This document shows, piece by piece, positions 1,585 to 16,600 of a stretch of DNA of 24,810 nt. This stretch comes from a virus. The stretch is from positions 1 to 24,810 of the IMG/VR virus record IMGVR_UViG_3300021962_000610; one strand, given 5' to 3'. The position numbers were made by a program, and so were the translations under genes. Within the stretch, counting starts at the first letter, position 1. Each line of letters starts with the position of its first letter. The notes below the pieces were generated by a model. It saw only the letters and a list, made by a program, of their open reading frames with translations, was not told the DNA's origin and ran no database searches.

Positions 1585-2424
1585 TTGGCAAAACCAGAAT
1601 TTAAACCAGATCCAGTGCTTACTGCACAAATAGATAGAACATTCGTCGAAGAAACATTTGAGGACAAGTATGTACCCTTGCCACAAAAGGTTTATGTAAA
1701 AGCCGGCGAAATGATGAGTGATAAGGGATATGAAGAATCATATCTCGCAGATGCGATACGTGCTAAAATGAAACGTGACAAGAAACGTTTCTGGGCCGGA
1801 GATAACATCAGCGATTACATCTCAGAAGAAGATAAGTCAAAGTTAATTGACGAAGCAACAGAAGCATTTGAACTAGTGCTTGACCGTTTGCTAATTGATC
1901 GGGAAAGTGATCCTAACAGTCAAGGTACTGCTCGTCGTTTAGCTAAAATGTACTTTAATGAAATTATGGCAGGACGGTATGAACCTGGCCCAAACGCTAC
2001 AGCGTTTCCTAATGATAGTGAGGAAAGATATGAAGGCATGTTGGTTGTTCGTAGTGAGTTACGTAGTATGTGTAGTCATCATCACCAACCCGTTGTTGGC
2101 GTTGCTTATATTGGCATTATTGCCGCTAGTAAACTTATCGGCTTATCTAAGTACACACGCATCGCCCAATGGTGTGCCAGAAGAGGCACTCTCCAGGAGG
2201 AACTTTGTAATGATATTGCTAGGGAGATCGAAAAGGCCACAGGAGCCAAAGATCTAGGAGTATACGTACAAGCCACTCACGGATGCTGCGAGAATCGCGG
2301 CATTATGGCACATTCTAGTCTTACACAGACTACTGTACTCAAAGGTGCATTTAAAGATGATCCTGGCACAAAGAAAGAATTCTTTGACAACATTAAAATG
2401 CAACAGGAGTTTGCTCCGCGATGA
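1585..2424 (+). CDS. folE: GTP cyclohydrolase I (FolE), phage type with N-terminal extension
   Basis: FolE converts GTP to 7,8-dihydroneopterin triphosphate, the first step shared by folate and 7-deazaguanine (preQ0/queuosine) synthesis. The catalytic domain is clear in residues 150-270: SMCSHHHQPVVG (161-172) carries the zinc Cys163 and the following His residues, LIGLSKYTRIAQWCARR (185-201) matches the conserved GLSK..RI...ARR segment, QEEL follows, and QATHGCCENRG (229-239) carries the third zinc ligand Cys plus the 'ATH.C...RG' signature. About 100 residues precede the core, longer than bacterial FolE. The start is TTG at 1585, with CGGAG (1572-1576) eight bases upstream; no ATG fits better. 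Its last bases overlap the next gene as ATGA. With QueE downstream, a deazaguanine role is more likely than folate supply. Confidence 0.95.
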   Translation: MAKPEFKPDPVLTAQIDRTFVEETFEDKYVPLPQKVYVKAGEMMSDKGYEESYLADAIRAKMKRDKKRFWAGDNISDYISEEDKSKLIDEATEAFELVLDRLLIDRESDPNSQGTARRLAKMYFNEIMAGRYEPGPNATAFPNDSEERYEGMLVVRSELRSMCSHHHQPVVGVAYIGIIAASKLIGLSKYTRIAQWCARRGTLQEELCNDIAREIEKATGAKDLGVYVQATHGCCENRGIMAHSSLTQTTVLKGAFKDDPGTKKEFFDNIKMQQEFAPR

Positions 2425-2864: not shown

Positions 2865-3282
2865 AAAAATTGGAAGAAAACGTATCATAATGGATCGTCT
2901 AAGTGACGAGCCATATCTAGAAAGATACTATCTATTCCTTAAGGACCGAGAGAAATTTCCATTTAATATCTTTTTACACAAATTCTTAAAAGGAGATCCA
3001 GACGATCTCCACGATCATCCTTGGCCATATGCCACATTAATTTTAAAAGGCGGGTACTGGGAAACAACTCCAGAAGGTCGTTTTTGGAGAGGACCTGGTC
3101 ATTTCAGAGTCTGCAAAGCAGAAAGCTTTCACAGAGTTGAACTAGATCCTAATGTTACTTGCTGGACATTGTTTATGCCAGGTCCCCATAAAAGAGAGTG
3201 GGGATTTGATGTTAACGGAAAATGGATACAACACGAACAATATTTGAAAGGGAGATATGAACAAGCGCATAGTAAAGTTTAG
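2845..3282 (+). CDS. Cupin-fold metal-binding protein
   Basis: The 145-residue protein has a single-domain cupin pattern: LHDHPWPYATLILKGGYWE (about 55-73) gives His56, His58 and Glu73 in the spacing of cupin motif 1 (HxH...E), and KAESFHRVEL (91-100) gives the motif 2 His96. The glycine- and proline-rich turns between the strands also fit. Small cupins bind Fe, Mn or Zn and range from dioxygenases to sugar epimerases, so the reaction cannot be assigned. The start at 2845 has GAAGAGG (2832-2838) six bases upstream and overlaps the glycosylase gene by 20 bases; it overlaps the next gene by 26. Such long overlaps suggest translational coupling in this nucleotide-metabolism run. Confidence 0.75.
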   Translation: MFLKLLEKIGRKRIIMDRLSDEPYLERYYLFLKDREKFPFNIFLHKFLKGDPDDLHDHPWPYATLILKGGYWETTPEGRFWRGPGHFRVCKAESFHRVELDPNVTCWTLFMPGPHKREWGFDVNGKWIQHEQYLKGRYEQAHSKV

Positions 3283-3811
3283 TGATTTTAGAAATCATGT
3301 CAGCACCATTTGTAGACAGGTTCAATTTTCAAGTTGGAAACCAGATTACGTTGTTGGCATTACTCGCGGTGGACTTTTGCCAGCTGTAATGATTAGTCAC
3401 TGGTTAGGTGTACCTATGCACACACTTGCTGTATCTCTTAGAGACGGCGGAAGCTGTGAGAGTAATTTGTGGATGGCTGAAGATGCCTTCGGTGCTGTTC
3501 CACTCGATCACCAAGAAACAATACGTAGCCGCTGGGACATTAGTTTTAGAAAAAATATTCTAATAGTCGATGATATTAACGACAGCGGATCGACTATTAA
3601 CTGGATTAAGCAAGATTGGGAATCGGGTTGTTTTCCAAATGAGACTAGTGTATGGAACACAGTCTGGAATAAAAATGTAAGATTTGCAGTTGTGTTTGAT
3701 AACTTAGCCAGTAAGTCTGAAATTAAAATGGACTATACCGGAGAAGAAATCAATAAAGCAGAAAACGATCTATGGATTGAATTTCCATATGAAGAATGGT
3801 GGTCAAAATGA
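3257..3811 (+). CDS. Type I phosphoribosyltransferase (purine PRTase-like)
   Basis: The 184-residue protein has the hallmark PRPP-binding loop ILIVDDINDSGSTINW (101-116), a hydrophobic strand followed by two acidic residues and a small-residue turn, plus the upstream strand-loop YVVGITRGGLLPAVMISHWLG (31-51) seen in hypoxanthine/xanthine-guanine PRTases. Type I PRTases join a base to PRPP to give a nucleotide, or act in reverse. The usual flexible loop and hood are short or divergent, so the base is not predictable. In a neighbourhood that can make 7-deazaguanine bases, salvage of a normal or modified purine base would make sense, but that is inference. The last bases overlap the next gene as ATGA. 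Confidence 0.85.
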   Translation: MNKRIVKFSDFRNHVSTICRQVQFSSWKPDYVVGITRGGLLPAVMISHWLGVPMHTLAVSLRDGGSCESNLWMAEDAFGAVPLDHQETIRSRWDISFRKNILIVDDINDSGSTINWIKQDWESGCFPNETSVWNTVWNKNVRFAVVFDNLASKSEIKMDYTGEEINKAENDLWIEFPYEEWWSK

Positions 3812-4197
3812 AAAAAGAAGTTATTATGGAGGGGCAACCTCCTTTTATCGAAGATAGCACAGCACCCTGGGATAATCTTCTAGAAGAAGATTTTCACGTA
3901 AAAGTATTTTATGACAAATATCCTGTAACAGAAGGACACTTGTTATTCGTGCCTAAATATAACACTGTAGCTGTTCTAATGGATGCATTCGAAAGTGCTG
4001 TCCGCGACGGAATGCGCATGGTCGAAGAAGGTGACTGCGACGGATTCAATGTAGGATTTAACTACGGTAAAGCAGCAGGTCAAACCGTAGGTTGGCCTCA
4101 CGTACATCTCATCCCGAGACGTACTGGAGATATGGAAGACCCCACAGGAGGCGTTCGTCACGTTATTCCTGAAAAGGGCAATTATAGGAAATGGTAA
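3808..4197 (+). CDS. HIT-family nucleotide-binding protein with variant histidine triad
   Basis: The 129-residue protein (start 3808) has the HIT layout: FHVKVFYDKYPVTEGHLLFVPK (29-50, in parts), where the T.GH.L..PK turn precedes the long helix, then NVGFNYGKAAGQTVGWPHVH and LIPRRTGD (81-108). The triad normally reads HxHxH after QTV; here the first His is Trp96, while His98 (the nucleophile position) and His100 remain. HIT proteins hydrolyse or transfer nucleotidyl groups of dinucleotides, AMP-lysine and similar substrates. I prefer 3808, which forms ATGA with the PRTase stop, over the in-frame ATG at 3796, which has no useful ribosome binding site. Pairing with the PRTase suggests a nucleotide salvage or clean-up role. 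Confidence 0.82.
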   Translation: MKKEVIMEGQPPFIEDSTAPWDNLLEEDFHVKVFYDKYPVTEGHLLFVPKYNTVAVLMDAFESAVRDGMRMVEEGDCDGFNVGFNYGKAAGQTVGWPHVHLIPRRTGDMEDPTGGVRHVIPEKGNYRKW

Positions 4198-4400
4198 TGA
4201 GACAAGAAATTATTGGCGTTTTAACACAGCACTTCGAGGCACACATTCTAAAGCATAAAATGAATGTAGACATTATGCTAAACAATCCTATGGCTATTCA
4301 CGAGCATACTGATTTAATGGATGCCATTGAAAAAGAAATTGATCAAATTTCTGAATACATGGATAAGTTAGAAGTAATACAAAAATATTTTAAGGAATGA
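4197..4400 (+). CDS. Small helical phage protein, unknown
   Basis: This 67-residue protein starts at the ATG at 4197 that overlaps the HIT stop codon as TAATG, with AGGA (4186-4189) seven bases upstream; an ATG at 4191 is in frame but sits only one base from that site. The sequence is highly charged and almost wholly helical by composition, with a C-terminal heptad-like run ending in ISEYMDKLEVIQKYFKE that could form a coiled coil. No cysteines or membrane segment are present. No family is recognised. Confidence 0.68.
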   Translation: MRQEIIGVLTQHFEAHILKHKMNVDIMLNNPMAIHEHTDLMDAIEKEIDQISEYMDKLEVIQKYFKE

Positions 4401-4402
4401 TT

Positions 4403-4570
4403 ATGCAAGTGAGAGTTGAACAAAACGAAAGCGAAATTGGTAAATGTGGGTGTGGTCGTAGTCCAACTGGTAAGTGCATAGGTTGGCACGGGTTATCTGA
4501 GGATGAGTTTCAACAACGTAAAGAACTTTACGAAACAGGCAAAGCAGATCTCAATGGCGATCCAGTATAA
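4403..4570 (+). CDS. CDGSH-like iron-sulfur miniprotein
   Basis: A short gene of 55 residues, found by reading the gap between its neighbours. The ATG at 4403 has AAGGA (4392-4396) six bases upstream; the ATG at 4397 in the same frame directly abuts that site and is less likely. Residues 14-29 read KCGCGRSPTGKCIGWH: Cys15, Cys17, Ser20, Cys25 and His29. This closely follows the CDGSH 2Fe-2S signature C-x-C-x2-(S/T)-x3-P-x-C-D-G-x-H with one residue less before the third Cys. The rest is a charged helix (LSEDEFQQRKELYETGKADL). If it binds 2Fe-2S, it could be an electron-transfer or redox-sensing partner for the QueE or oxygenase enzymes nearby, but a zinc knuckle is also possible. It overlaps the next gene by 17 bases. 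Confidence 0.72.
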   Translation: MQVRVEQNESEIGKCGCGRSPTGKCIGWHGLSEDEFQQRKELYETGKADLNGDPV

Positions 4571-4760: not shown

Positions 4761-4960
4761 ATAAAAGTTGGTTATTAGATGTTCAAGAAGATAAAAGTAC
4801 AGGTGATTGTTATATCGAACTTACAGATGAGATTTTAAAAGAATCTGGTTTTAAAGTTGGTGATTCGCTTTATTGGATTAACAATGGAGACGGTTCGTAT
4901 ACATTAACAAAAGAAGACTTGACAACGTTTATTAATAAAGGTATAATAAGGAATGAGTAA
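4757..4960 (+). CDS. AbrB/MazE/SpoVT-like swapped-hairpin protein
   Basis: This 67-residue protein has LTDEILKESGFKVGDSLYWI (22-41), the amphipathic helix followed by G-x-x-x-G-D-x-L that marks the AbrB/MazE beta-alpha-beta hairpin, then GDGSYTLTK. Proteins of this shape are usually dimeric DNA-binding transition regulators or antitoxins. No toxin gene is adjacent, so a stand-alone regulator or accessory protein is more likely. Its stop codon (4958-4960) lies inside the first codons of the queE relic (ATGAGTAA), which shows that abrB-like and queE genes were originally overlapping neighbours. Confidence 0.7.
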   Translation: MNKSWLLDVQEDKSTGDCYIELTDEILKESGFKVGDSLYWINNGDGSYTLTKEDLTTFINKGIIRNE

Positions 4961-5036
4961 GTTAAAAATTGCAGAATTGTTTTATAGTGTGCAAGGCGAA
5001 AGCCACTGTGAATACAATGAGGATCTATTTGTATGA
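4953..5036 (+). pseudogene. Truncated queE relic (27 codons) upstream of the oxygenase
   Basis: From the ATG at 4953 the frame reads MSKLKIAELFYSVQGE and then SHCEYNEDLFV before a stop at 5034-5036. The first 16 residues are identical to the start of the complete QueE at 5626. After base 5000 the similarity ends. The stop overlaps the ATG of the oxygenase gene (5033) as ATGA, so if translated the relic would couple ribosomes into that gene. Its AAGGA (4948-4952) touches the ATG with no spacer, so initiation is probably weak. It looks like the broken 5' end of queE left by an insertion. Confidence 0.8.
4954..5000 (+). repeat. 47-bp direct repeat, left copy
   Basis: Bases 4954-5000 are identical, without a mismatch, to 5627-5673. 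The copies are 673 bases apart and enclose the 2OG-Fe(II) oxygenase gene. The repeat covers codons 1-16 of queE from the second base of the start codon: the left copy has ATG and the right copy GTG. Identity stops sharply at 5000/5673. Confidence 0.97.
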
Positions 5037-5608
5037 CAGACTTTTGCATTGATAAATTATTTCCTAGTAATGTTATCTATAAAGACTATCAGATTGAAAA
5101 CAAAGATAGTGTAGTAGATAAAGCAATGGAAATAATTAATCAGTTAGGAGAGAAACCATTTTACTCTCCTTGCGTTAGTACGGTTCACACTTCAAAAGAT
5201 TTACTTAACCTTGATGAATTTGAGTCTATCAAAAAACAAATAGTAGAAACGGTAACAGTTTTTTGCGATGTTCACAAAATTGTCACAAAAGATTTACAGA
5301 TAAAGGATGCATGGTTAAATTACTATAATACTAATGGTTATCAAGATTTACATCATCATCCTGACAGTATGATTTCGGGTGTCTATTATATAGACGGAAC
5401 AGAAACCAAAGATTTCATATTTCAAGCTCCGTGGTATTTTCATCAACCATGTTTCCCAGAATATAGCGAAGTCAATATAGAGAATTGTTGTAATGTTGAA
5501 TATGAAAGTGTCACTGGAAGATGTATTGTGTTTATGAGCCATTTAATGCACAGAACTCTCCCAGCAGTCAAACCAAGATTAAGTTTGTCATTCAATGTTA
5601 GATATTAA
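5033..5608 (+). CDS. 2OG-Fe(II) oxygenase (inserted between queE copies)
   Basis: The 191-residue protein has the double-stranded beta-helix iron site: HHHPDSMISGVYYIDG (107-122) gives His109-x-Asp111, IVFMSHLMHRTLPAV (165-179) gives the distal His173, and KPRLSLSFNVRY (180-191) gives Arg182 for 2-oxoglutarate. This layout, with WLNYYNTNGYQDLHHHPDS before it, fits the phage/bacterial putative 2OG-Fe(II) oxygenase family (the TIGR02466-like group). Such enzymes hydroxylate proteins, nucleobases or small molecules; the substrate is not known. GAGGA (5019-5023) lies nine bases before the ATG. The whole gene sits in the segment between the two 47-bp queE repeats, so it looks like an acquired cargo gene. 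Confidence 0.85.
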   Translation: MTDFCIDKLFPSNVIYKDYQIENKDSVVDKAMEIINQLGEKPFYSPCVSTVHTSKDLLNLDEFESIKKQIVETVTVFCDVHKIVTKDLQIKDAWLNYYNTNGYQDLHHHPDSMISGVYYIDGTETKDFIFQAPWYFHQPCFPEYSEVNIENCCNVEYESVTGRCIVFMSHLMHRTLPAVKPRLSLSFNVRY

Positions 5609-5625
5609 ACAGATAAGGATTAGTA

Positions 5626-6480
5626 GTGAGTAAGTTAAAAATTGCAGAATTGTTTTATAGTGTGCAAGGCGAAGGACGGTACATGGGTGTTCCGTCTGTT
5701 TTCTTACGTACATTTGGTTGTAACTTTAAGTGTGCTGGCTTTGGTATGCCTAAAGGAGAGCTCAGTACAGAAGTAGAGGCTATTGCCGAAAGAATTACGG
5801 ATTTTAAAAAGTATGAAGAACTTCCATTGGTTTCTACAGGTTGTGATAGTTATGCTAGCTGGGATCCTCGTTTTAAGGATCTTAGTCCAATGCTTACTTC
5901 CGACGCCATCGCAGAAAGAATCTCTGAGATTCTACCGTTCAATGAATGGCGAGATGAACATTTGGTAATTACAGGCGGCGAACCATTACTAGGTTGGCAA
6001 CGTGCATATCCGGATTTACTGCGTCATCCTAAAATGGCAGGTCTCAAAGAAATCACTTTTGAAACAAATGGAACTCAGCCATTAACTGAAGATTTTGCAA
6101 ATTATTTGTTAGAATGGCTGATGCCTCATCCAGAATATCACAAAGAGATCACATTCAGTGTTAGTGCTAAACTAAGTTGTAGTGGTGAGGCGAAACACGA
6201 AGCTATCCGACCAGATATAGTTTGCGACTACGAAACATTAGGATATACATATCTTAAATTTGTAGTAGCCACAGAAGAAGATGCAGAAGAAGCAATTGAA
6301 ACAGCAGAGATTTATAGAGCCGAAGGATTTACAGGACCAGTTTATCTTATGCCAGTTGGTGGTGTAGAATCTGTTTATACTCTTAACAATCGAAGAGTCG
6401 CTGAACTAGCAATGAAGAATGGTTTGCGCTATTCGGATCGTTTGCAGGTTCCGTTATTTAAAAATGAGTGGGGAACTTAA
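5626..6480 (+). CDS. queE: 7-carboxy-7-deazaguanine synthase (QueE), radical SAM
   Basis: QueE contracts the ring of 6-carboxytetrahydropterin to 7-carboxy-7-deazaguanine using a 4Fe-4S cluster and SAM. Evidence: FYSVQGEGRYMGVPSVFLR (10-28) is the QueE N-terminal signature, GCNFKC (31-36) gives the first two cluster cysteines, GCDSYASWD (72-80) the third, and ITGGEPLLGWQRAY (115-128) the SAM-binding GGEP strand. About 36 residues separate Cys36 and Cys73, far more than the usual two; as I recall other marine phage QueE proteins share this. Later ETNGT and PVYLMPVGG also fit. The start is GTG at 5626 with AAGGA (5615-5619) six bases upstream. It overlaps the next gene as TAATG. The 5' end is duplicated upstream (4953-5000). 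Confidence 0.95.
   Translation: MSKLKIAELFYSVQGEGRYMGVPSVFLRTFGCNFKCAGFGMPKGELSTEVEAIAERITDFKKYEELPLVSTGCDSYASWDPRFKDLSPMLTSDAIAERISEILPFNEWRDEHLVITGGEPLLGWQRAYPDLLRHPKMAGLKEITFETNGTQPLTEDFANYLLEWLMPHPEYHKEITFSVSAKLSCSGEAKHEAIRPDIVCDYETLGYTYLKFVVATEEDAEEAIETAEIYRAEGFTGPVYLMPVGGVESVYTLNNRRVAELAMKNGLRYSDRLQVPLFKNEWGT
5627..5673 (+). repeat. 47-bp direct repeat, right copy (start of intact queE)
   Basis: Perfect match to 4954-5000. Here it forms codons 1-16 of the complete queE gene. The ribosome binding site is better placed than in the left copy (six bases rather than none before the start), although the start codon is GTG rather than ATG. Confidence 0.97.
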
Positions 6481-14162: not shown

Positions 14163-15250
14163 AAATATTTAAAAGTTCAAATTTAAATTTATTAATGAAA
14201 GATAATCACTTTCATTTTTTACCGTTTGAATTTGAAAATAAAAAATGGACTATTGTTGATAAAATATCAGATAGCGATGTAGTACCAGTATTGTTTACAT
14301 ACGGGGAAGAGTTAATAAAAAAAACAGTCAATGAAATGAAAGAGTTAGGGCATACCGATCAACCGGTAATAGTCCTAAATTTATTTCATTTAATGGATAA
14401 TGAAAATAATAAAATTGCTAACCGAACATATTTAGAACTTTGGAAGAAATACCTAAACTGTCCGGTTTTTATGATACACTCTAACTTAGACGAAACTTCT
14501 GAGGATTGTATTTTTAACGATATACTATGGAACAGACAAAAAGCATACTGTACCGAATATCAGATGTTTGATTTAAAAAACAGAGCCTGGTCATTATATG
14601 CAACAAAGAAAATGTACAACATAGGACAGTTTGAAAAAAATGATCACTGTAAAATATTTCTATCTCCAATAAGGATATACAGTGACTCTAATCATATTAG
14701 AATGACTTATCGAGCTAAGTTACTAAGTTTGATAAAAAACAAAAACGGTTATTATAGCGACAATACTAATGGAATGGTTTTAGAATCTGAGGAAGGTTTA
14801 AAGTTCAATAATAGACTATTGTCAGGTGGCGGAACTTGGTGGCCCGTTGCTAATAAATTTTACGAATCTTCTTATATCAGTATCTATGTAGAAACAATTC
14901 TAGAAAGAGATAAGCTGAGAAGTATAACTGAGAAAACCTGGGATCCTTTAATTAAAGGACATTTTATTCTACCTTTCGGATATCAGGGACTAATAAAAGA
15001 TATTGAGTCCTATGGTTTTAAATTACCCAACTGGATTGATTATTCTTACGACGATATCGAAGATATCGAAGACCGGTGGAATCAGTACGAAAAAGAAGTT
15101 AATCGAATTTTATCTCTTAGAATGCAACAGCTTAATCTTTTATGGAAACAAGATTTAAATCTGTTAAAATATAATAGAGATTTATTTTTTAAAAGAAAGT
15201 ACGATAGTCTGTATGATAAAATTCTTTTAAAATTAAAAAACAGAACATAG
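14159..15250 (+). CDS. Phage glycosyltransferase-like protein, paralog of the gene at 12080
   Basis: The 363-residue protein ends with SITEKTWDPLIKGHFILPFG (255-274) and GFKLPNWIDYSYDD (286-299), the same motif order as in the 12080 product (YSEKTFKPI ... PFLIYG ... GYKLYTDWFDYSF). A preceding FLSPIRIYSDSNHIRMTYRA (167-186) corresponds to the FISLSRVNRDYRSLA strand. The N-terminal 150 residues differ. Function is inferred as glycosyl transfer. It overlaps the SGNH gene by ATGA and its last 18 bases overlap the 3' end of the opposing radical SAM gene. Confidence 0.68.
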   Translation: MKIFKSSNLNLLMKDNHFHFLPFEFENKKWTIVDKISDSDVVPVLFTYGEELIKKTVNEMKELGHTDQPVIVLNLFHLMDNENNKIANRTYLELWKKYLNCPVFMIHSNLDETSEDCIFNDILWNRQKAYCTEYQMFDLKNRAWSLYATKKMYNIGQFEKNDHCKIFLSPIRIYSDSNHIRMTYRAKLLSLIKNKNGYYSDNTNGMVLESEEGLKFNNRLLSGGGTWWPVANKFYESSYISIYVETILERDKLRSITEKTWDPLIKGHFILPFGYQGLIKDIESYGFKLPNWIDYSYDDIEDIEDRWNQYEKEVNRILSLRMQQLNLLWKQDLNLLKYNRDLFFKRKYDSLYDKILLKLKNRT

Positions 15251-16600
15251 TTTGTAAAATTGTTCCATTTCAGGAAATGTTTTTAGAAAATTAGTTCCCC
15301 GTCTGCGATCGTACTCATTGAACCAATTATAAAAATCTTTTCGACCTTCTTTTAATCGTTCTTCGCTATAGTTAGTTGTTTTCATATAATCAACTACACG
15401 CCTAAATTTTTCAAACTCAAGATCGGAGAATTTAGTACGATCCAGATCATCCAAGTTATCTTTGATGAATTTTAGATGCGATTCCATGTAAGGAATGTAA
15501 TCTTCCTTGGGCAGTATATTCATGTCATACTGCAAAGGTTCTTTTAAAAACGGTGTATCAAATCTAATGCGTTGCCATTTATTTTGTTCTAAACCGTTAT
15601 ATCTCTTTCTCCACTCTAATATCTTTTCCAGCAAACTCTGAAAATTTGTCACTGTAAGAATATTAAAAGTTATCATAAAAGTAATAGGCAATGCTGTCTT
15701 GGTAAGATAGGTATTTAAATTTGTTTCCCACACAGATAGATCCAACCCTGTACGAATATACTCTGCAGAATCTCCCCATGTATCTATACTAGTAAAAATT
15801 TTAAAATCTTTTATTTTACCGTTATTAACTAAATTATTAACTTTTTCTACTAGTCTACTGATTAGTAAGGGCTTAACACCAAAATTGCTGTTGATGTTTA
15901 ATTCTAAATTTGGTAGGGGATTCTGTTCTAAATCATCTAGCAATTTCCAAGTACTCTGTTGCAATAAAGGTTCGCCACCAGTAATACGCAAGATAGTTAA
16001 TGTCTTACGAACTTCTGGCCACCACTCCCACCAAGCAGCAACATATGGATTTGTTTCTTCTTCGTAGATTTGAAACCAATTGATATCATTCCGATGATTA
16101 CGAACCATAGTATACGGTCCGTGATCTTTGATCTCTTTATAATAGCTGCTGCTGTGTTTAGGATGACAATATCCGCACTTGAAATTGCATTCATTTCCAA
16201 AAGAAATTTCAATATACTGTGGGTTAACAGGACTCATTGGATTTTCGACAACATTTTTAAAACGTTGCTCTGTGTAGATACTAGCATTACGCTCGTGTCG
16301 ATCACTGATGTATTCAGATCCTAATGCTTCTATATTCCAACAATATTGACACCCTGACGGTTTCTTGCCTTCTAACATGTCAAATCTCTCTGACATCTTT
16401 TGTGGTGTATTATGCAATACGCTAGGATTGTGTGATAACTGATCTAGAGGAATCTTATGAGGAGGGGGATGATAACAACTATGTGTTTCTCCCGTCTGTA
16501 GATATATTGTAGTATGATGCCATTTGGCCATACAGAATGTAGGACTAACTTCATTCATTATCGGAATGAACTTTTTAATCCTCGATATGTCTTGCATCAA
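15233..16600 (-). CDS. Radical SAM protein with twitch/SPASM-like extra cysteines
   Basis: The 455-residue protein has the SAM cluster motif FGNECNFKCGYCHPKHSS (134-151) with Cys138, Cys142, Cys145, and the SAM-binding ILRITGGEPLL (203-213). The N-terminal 90 residues have FCMAKWHHTTIYLQTGETH (22-40) with Cys23 and then Cys42, Cys84, Cys87 (GCQYCW), which could bind an auxiliary cluster or zinc; in most twitch proteins such cysteines are C-terminal, so their N-terminal place is notable. Typical substrates of this family are peptides or sugars. It sits between glycosyltransferase genes, so sugar dehydrogenation, epimerisation or an unknown group attachment is possible. It overlaps its upstream neighbour by 26 bases. 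Confidence 0.86.
   Translation of the reverse strand: MMQDISRIKKFIPIMNEVSPTFCMAKWHHTTIYLQTGETHSCYHPPPHKIPLDQLSHNPSVLHNTPQKMSERFDMLEGKKPSGCQYCWNIEALGSEYISDRHERNASIYTEQRFKNVVENPMSPVNPQYIEISFGNECNFKCGYCHPKHSSSYYKEIKDHGPYTMVRNHRNDINWFQIYEEETNPYVAAWWEWWPEVRKTLTILRITGGEPLLQQSTWKLLDDLEQNPLPNLELNINSNFGVKPLLISRLVEKVNNLVNNGKIKDFKIFTSIDTWGDSAEYIRTGLDLSVWETNLNTYLTKTALPITFMITFNILTVTNFQSLLEKILEWRKRYNGLEQNKWQRIRFDTPFLKEPLQYDMNILPKEDYIPYMESHLKFIKDNLDDLDRTKFSDLEFEKFRRVVDYMKTTNYSEERLKEGRKDFYNWFNEYDRRRGTNFLKTFPEMEQFYKLCSVF
15266..15284 (+). terminator. Weak intrinsic terminator candidate for the + sugar operon
   Basis: CATTT (15266-15270) and AAATG (15275-15279) pair around CAGG, followed by five T (15280-15284), 16 bases after the + stop at 15250. 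The five-pair, AT-rich stem is weak, but the position mirrors the strong terminator at 10852-10878: just past the last + gene and inside the 3' end of the opposing gene. Confidence 0.35.

Follow-up and report, generated by a model that had tools for sequence, protein, structure and literature searches.

The closest described system is that of the CDGSH proteins (PF09360; NEET/CISD), whose consensus and architecture, with an N-strand, a P motif and a beta-sandwich pairing two clusters, are described in two papers (PMC3174974; PMC5859297). Like them, the family described here carries three Cys and one His, with C-x-C-[G]-x-S as the first half and C-x-G-x-H as the second half, so that the ligand pairs are the same. 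However, the family is one residue shorter between the two halves, lacks the Pro before the third Cys and lacks the Asp; where CDGSH proteins have C-D-G-S-H, the locus studied here has C-I-G-W-H, with the Gly retained. A second comparison is offered by SEC-C (PF02810), the C-terminal appendage of SecA, which shares the short C-x-C-G loop and the use as an optional C-terminal appendage. There, the last two ligands are adjacent (C-[CH]), whereas they form C-x3-H in the family; in addition, SEC-C has GSGKK in place of GRSPTG and no trailing helix motif. DUF1289 (PF06945) also comprises small Cys proteins, in which GC-x-R-[ST] is followed by a W...[LM]-[ST] stretch, but these contain four Cys in another order (C-x3-C ... 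C-x-G-C-x-R) and no His in the ligand place.

The window, i.e., the whole stretch of DNA that was analysed, is a virus record of 24.8 kb. Its miniprotein gene lies directly 3′ of a phrog_1811 gene, within a cluster extending from folE to queE (Table 1). The translation is MQVRVEQNESEIGKCGCGRSPTGKCIGWHGLSEDEFQQRKELYETGKADLNGDPV* (55 aa), and the segment CGCGRSPTGKCIGWH within it fits C-x-C-x2-S-x4-C-x3-H. The first-pass annotation had described a 55-residue frame with a good ribosome binding site and a ligand spacing one residue under that of CDGSH; the frame and its ribosome binding site (AAGGA) were confirmed, as was the spacing in CGCGRSPTGKCIGWH, and relatives were found in hundreds of loci. 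An additional in-frame ATG is present at 4397. The start at 4403 is preferred because viral relatives mostly keep the MQVRV start and because of the Shine-Dalgarno statistics: Met occupies this position in 56 of 57 distinct viral cores, and across the collected loci a Shine-Dalgarno-like word precedes 94 of 112 distinct MQ.R starts, compared with 18% in shuffles. Many relatives read further upstream, with an in-frame extension of the KGSxPRP type in 51 of 81 loci (the window and the first 80 viral loci). As the Shine-Dalgarno-like word before the internal MQ.R start is retained in 41 of 51 distinct extended starts, long and short products are both possible. Where it is present in L002-L081, this extension is a small N-terminal module of the form MxKGSRPRPFSVSQ..F..IFGKK or alike. 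The frame is short and the family libraries searched contain none of its relatives, as might be expected of a spurious frame; given hundreds of conserved loci, synonymous variation and Shine-Dalgarno sites, we consider this explanation negligible.

Table 1. Features of the window around the miniprotein gene.
Feature	Position	Strand	Remarks
GTP cyclohydrolase I (FolE)	1606..2424	+	Pfam PF01227, E 4e-38; phrog_2197; near the miniprotein in many phages
Phosphoribosyltransferase	3257..3811	+	PF00156, E 2.2e-11
HIT-domain protein	3796..4197	+	PF01230, E 7.7e-9
phrog_1811 protein, directly upstream of the miniprotein	4191..4400	+	E 4e-23; unknown function
Shine-Dalgarno AAGGA	4392..4396	+	6 nt upstream of the ATG
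Miniprotein ORF	4403..4570, stop included	+	55 residues; start backed by relatives and Shine-Dalgarno statistics
Signature CGCGRSPTGKCIGWH	4445..4489	+	Residues 15-29; Cys15, Cys17, Cys25 and His29 are the likely metal ligands
Predicted helix after the metal-type site	4499..4537	+	Residues 33-45; AlphaFold2 model, mean pLDDT 74.3, pTM 0.50
2OG-Fe(II) oxygenase	5033..5608	+	PF13759, E 4.9e-13
QueE-like radical SAM enzyme	5626..6480	+	phrog_2076, E 3.8e-52

The family signature is C-x-C-G-R-S-P-x-G-x-C-x-G-[WLM]-H. A scan of viral contigs gave 279 relatives and a broader viral scan at least 576 stretches encoding them, with 80 kept in each case; among 84,980 bacterial and archaeal genomes, 203 stretches with relatives were found (80 kept). 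Both viral and bacterial loci contain near-duplicates, e.g., L084/L085 (one contig), L095/L099/L100 and G765/G766/G782. The family, which is unnamed in the libraries searched, occurs both in planktonic bacteria and in many uncultured phages. Isolates carry it on large contigs or a complete chromosome (HTCC2083, HTCC2255, IMCC1909, HIMB11, HTCC2181, LSUCC0665 and XHP0102), and further carriers are SAR116, SAR86, Halieaceae, Burkholderiales, Opitutia and marine archaeal genomes, which are largely bins or single cells, so that contamination is possible. In bacteria the family mostly takes a short form, M(x)n-CGCGRSPTGxCxGWHxLSEEEYxxK, with about 36-60 aa counted from the nearest Met. Carriers are sparse: profile searches recovered 6 carriers among 385 genomes of the HTCC2083 class, with the centre genome counted, and a single one among 369 genomes of the HTCC2181 class, namely the centre genome itself, although only 17-18 candidates were scored per larger genome and some carriers may be missed. 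One genome of eight that were searched (G008, that of L094) has two family matches, the second being weaker (E 6.9e-13).

Searches elsewhere were mostly negative. Among 50,697 GenBank phage records no convincing relative was found: the first query gave three matches at E 5-7, a longer query two matches (E 5e-3 and 3e-4) that fall mostly on its own N-terminal extension, and a further query none. In a control on the collected loci, the low-complexity filter left the window protein unaffected (380/380 loci) and lowered recovery by the further query (307 vs. 379 loci). Plasmids (72,556 records) contained no relatives, and in the cyanophages reached via a neighbour gene no product named like the family was present among the annotated products. 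Pfam, NCBIfam, PHROGs and PDB gave no convincing match. By sequence, the sole PDB match had E 1.1 with a 16-member profile, and none was returned with an 81-member profile, while a true CDGSH query returned 23 CDGSH-type chains from the same database. The motif strings tried occur in none of the papers searched, and among the papers listed on CDGSH proteins and phages, on small CDGSH, 2Fe-2S or phage proteins, and on DoxX, LysR and GST, none is plainly on the family.

The four ligand-type residues are nearly invariant. A pattern that leaves the Cys free matched 125 of 141 newly fetched loci, and 78 of 81 distinct motif segments keep C1, C3 and C11; of the three exceptions, L292 and L322 were judged to be chance matches and L277 has Ser in place of the second Cys. 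Similarly, with Trp and His left free (118 of 141 newly fetched loci matched), the His is kept in all 108 distinct peptides, the adjacent Trp being replaced by Leu in 14. Each of the two pattern scans matched at least 120 stretches. Among collected segments chosen by CGRSP-x-[GE], C1, C11 and H15 are kept in 281 of 281 distinct ones, many of these loci having been fetched with patterns that already demand some of the three; conservation of GRSPTG is also partly imposed by the search patterns, which the free-position tests escape for the freed positions only. At the DNA level, 267 distinct sequences in the collected loci encode 56 distinct motif peptides. The pN/pS ratio is ~0.53 over the 15 codons after the motif, a rough value because synonymous sites are near saturation, and 0.15 within the motif, partly forced by the collecting pattern. 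The first-pass annotation had proposed an alignment of homologues that might reveal freely varying cysteines or histidine; they do not vary freely, and this near-invariance together with the synonymous DNA variation gives the motif the look of a metal site, without naming the metal. Two variants may be mentioned here. Leu variants (GLH) occur within phage frames of 128-223 aa (L366, L367, L369, L372, L373, L375 and L377), several of which have Lys/Ala-rich tails and some of which start with a hydrophobic stretch. In a SAR116 copy (L117:4998-5125), TGA replaces the motif Trp codon; as this is the sole stop within the 15-residue motif across the collected loci, the copy is either broken or contains a sequence error.

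Judged by its sequence, the conserved Cys3-His mini-domain very probably binds a metal. Our preferred reading, to which we assign a probability of roughly 0.45, is a minimal Cys3-His metal or Fe-S site in a small redox accessory protein, with Fe-S as the first choice and zinc close behind. In this architecture, one helix would follow a glycine-rich loop that contains C-x-C and C-x-G-x-H; the three Cys and the His would together form a single metal site, for which a small Fe-S cluster is the likeliest occupant. The pairs CxC and CxGxH would then act as the ligand pairs do for 2Fe-2S in CDGSH proteins, on a different minimal scaffold. Such a protein could serve its partner enzymes as an electron relay or in protection or sensing. 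Candidate partners on the phage side are QueE and further radical SAM enzymes; in bacteria, quinone/GST/DoxX systems could play this part. This reading is favoured by the near-invariant ligands, selection after the motif, fusions to radical SAM and DoxX proteins, proximity to queE and folE, and bacterial redox neighbours.

The relation to CDGSH proteins is more distant than the first-pass annotation suggested; it picked out a genuine feature and was roughly right on the radical SAM neighbourhood, but was too bold in naming the class. One alternative is a true CDGSH/NEET protein that has lost a single residue, and some observations point that way. In a comparison with CDGSH domains from bacterial loci (E 0.0058, probability 6.4), C, C, G, S, C, G and H are aligned over 27 columns with one gap, all four ligands included, and the global hhalign E value (0.069) is somewhat better than those of the controls SEC-C (0.49) and DUF1289 (0.68). 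However, the local hhalign values are close to one another (CDGSH 0.0057 over 27 columns, DUF1289 0.0065 over 22, SEC-C 0.0082 over 9) and come from small alignments of sequences from the genomes reached here (8 CDGSH, 7 SEC-C, 8 DUF1289); CDGSH is the best-scoring of the three profiles, yet all three are near chance. The consensus itself is not reproduced, as the spacing is one residue shorter and Pro and Asp are missing throughout the collected motifs, while Ser, Gly, His and the three Cys are retained. The earlier statement that Asp-Gly is missing was half right: of these two only the Asp is absent, the Gly being present, and a further loss is the Pro that precedes the third Cys. Pfam zf-CDGSH matched one of 81 members at E 0.055, in a member table that shows no cut-off, and gave nothing at E ≤1 for the window protein; true CDGSH domains were detected by the same library. 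The shortest members, moreover, are 36 aa (L336) and 39 aa (L095) long, with an upstream stop that leaves only M or MD, i.e., 1-2 residues, before the first Cys. Members of 36-39 aa therefore have no room for the N-strand, the P motif and the beta-sandwich of NEET proteins. We therefore reject CDGSH membership: the motif differs, Pfam gives no convincing match, the shortest members cannot accommodate the fold, and the profile scores hardly exceed chance. The slight advantage of CDGSH in the global profile comparison makes us hold membership slightly likelier, and zinc slightly less likely, than we otherwise would; membership is still very improbable. The family may nevertheless work like CDGSH proteins, with the same ligand pairs, though not classed as a member.

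The two controls were rejected as kin in the same way. For SEC-C, the profile comparison is near chance and PF02810 (motif CxCGSGxxxxxC[CH]G) is absent among the matches up to E 1 for the 81 members. DUF1289 (PF06945) matched two of the 81 members (best E 0.01), its profile comparison is near chance as well, and the family does not qualify as a member.

From the members of 36-39 aa, the domain can be taken as a loop of ~15 residues plus a helix of ~20. The AlphaFold2 model of the window protein contains one helix and no strand of three or more residues; a PDB fold search with this small model (pTM 0.50) gave 12 matches, the best at E 4.5 and none with Z ≥2. These dimensions bear on the choice of metal. 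An Fe-S cluster would be exposed in a 36-aa protein, which counts against our reading, as does the fact that the identity of the metal is read from the motif, with no PDB sequence match below E 1.1 and no usable fold match; the CDGSH-like local score, too, is nearly matched by SEC-C, a zinc domain, and by DUF1289. Zinc knuckles are usually small with one helix. The miniprotein could be such a structural knuckle, its Cys3-His binding Zn(II) in a docking or adaptor module for protein or nucleic acid that has no redox role. The small size with one helix fits, the C-x-C-G start is like that of SEC-C, and the Leu variants in longer phage frames, several with Lys/Ala-rich tails, would suit a nucleic-acid or adaptor role. 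Nevertheless, no convincing Pfam zinc family was found in the 81 members (best zf-CDGSH at E 0.055 and a TFIIS ribbon at E 0.28), the SEC-C comparison is near chance, and the partners that can be named are often redox enzymes. A zinc knuckle is a close, if somewhat less likely, alternative. As only ~36 residues and four nearly invariant ligand-type residues are needed, a synthetic peptide would be enough to identify the metal. A cluster, if held, would show how small an Fe-S protein can be and give a clue to the electron supply of phage radical SAM enzymes; zinc, if held, would mean a new mini zinc knuckle.

A redox role, and with it the Fe-S reading, is suggested by fusions. In L294, a radical SAM protein (PF04055, E 2.7e-15) ends in the domain. 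Among close relatives of this protein (80 loci, L294 counted), 19 carry the domain, with CGWH in 15 and CNGMH in 4 (as in L415-L418, where the His is retained), 60 end before it and one is cut off. No separate miniprotein copy was seen in the flanking DNA of the 80 loci, which extends up to 3 kb on either side, and the L294-type enzyme therefore does not need the domain; that 60 relatives manage without it is a point against the reading. A second type of fusion is found in L082, where the miniprotein reads in frame into a DoxX protein (E 2.3e-11). This is the sole such case, on a single bin contig that could hold an error. By eye, L106 resembles a read-through into cytochrome b561 caused by a frameshift, and we left it out of the fusion count.

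In phages, the miniprotein keeps company with a limited set of genes. The commonest nameable neighbours within 2.5 kb in 201 de-duplicated viral loci are folE (79), phosphoribosyltransferase (57), cupin-type (53), HIT (53) and queE (52), the names being given by likeness to window proteins and larger antisense-frame clusters over the miniprotein gene being set aside. In 30 hand-picked contigs of 37-400 kb, related ones among them not being independent, the miniprotein is present as a single copy in every case. QueE matches occur in 16, of which 15 are strong (one cut by the contig end) and one is weak and partial; queE lies within 5 kb of the miniprotein in 13 of the 15 contigs with strong matches, where 1.4 would be expected from random placement. 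Likewise, folE is present in 20 contigs and within 5 kb of the miniprotein in 13 of these, compared with 1.9 expected. Partial matches to QueC occur in 9 of the 30, above the cut-off in 4. The link to QueE proposed by the first-pass annotation, namely that the protein could feed electrons to this enzyme, gains from this proximity and from the fusion to another radical SAM protein in 19 of 80 loci, but QueE is not an obligate partner: 14 of the 30 contigs, four of them >140 kb, have no QueE match, and half have no strong one, which weighs against our reading. FolE enzymes of the class found in the window use zinc, and the proximity of folE suits a zinc site equally. A bolder form of the Fe-S reading would make the family the smallest natural kind of Fe-S protein, a 36-55 residue Cys3-His 2Fe-2S carrier with no beta-fold. 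Distributed among planktonic bacteria and the phages that infect them, it would dock on radical SAM enzymes (the adjoining QueE, another by fusion) as a dedicated electron donor in infection; we regard this version as unlikely.

Several minor features of the window and of related contigs accompany this cluster. PF04055 scores 27.7 bits on the window QueE, slightly under the cut-off of 29.5, and the cluster also includes a cysteine-dioxygenase-like protein, which we take to be a cupin. A 55-nt direct repeat (4946-5000 and 5619-5673; 95% identical, 673 bp apart) copies the start of queE and flanks the 2OG-Fe(II) oxygenase gene, an arrangement that looks like an insertion at the beginning of queE accompanied by a duplication. 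The contig of L002 has a second match to QueE residues 1-26, i.e., the same duplication of the queE start. Further away, positions 15233-16600 on the minus strand encode a second radical SAM protein (455 aa; phrog_14086) of unknown function, on which PF04055 is weak (23.8 bits vs. a cut-off of 29.5). A phrog_1811 homologue (40% identity, E 7e-12) is also encoded near position 2266 of L091, close to a miniprotein copy in an alphaproteobacterial bin; this is possibly a viral contig within the bin.

In the 80 bacterial loci, no relative of the window QueE was found. With neighbour families named by Pfam from one representative each, the genes within 5 kb are LysR (18 loci), GST (10), glutamate-synthase-type (8), DoxX (7), cytochrome b561 (6), DCC thiol oxidoreductase (4), YceI (4 clear cases, after L097 and L134 were dropped from six as short frames overlapping the miniprotein) and phosphoribosyltransferase (3). 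LysR is the nearest upstream gene in 17 loci and divergent in 15, and CDGSH motifs are present in 7 of the 8 glutamate-synthase-type neighbours. With one spurious YceI frame discounted, 28 of the 80 loci have one or more genes of the set LysR, GST, glutamate synthase, DoxX, b561, YceI and DCC near the miniprotein; all are absent nearby in the other 52, so the redox context is not universal, which tells against our reading. That some bacterial copies adjoin LysR regulators, GST or DoxX and many phage copies adjoin folE would also be compatible with a redox switch or metal chaperone, in which a reversibly bound metal is released on oxidation or zinc or iron is handed to FolE or radical SAM enzymes. 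Given the same lack of a universal context, we consider this idea improbable. The pairing with GST appears to be old. In three near-identical SAR86 loci a GST, presumably a glutathionyl-hydroquinone reductase, directly follows the miniprotein, and it shares 48-50% identity with GSTs from seven further loci, of which five are alphaproteobacterial and two come from bins named only Proteobacteria; this level of identity indicates that the pairing did not arise by one recent transfer and argues for an old association of the two genes.
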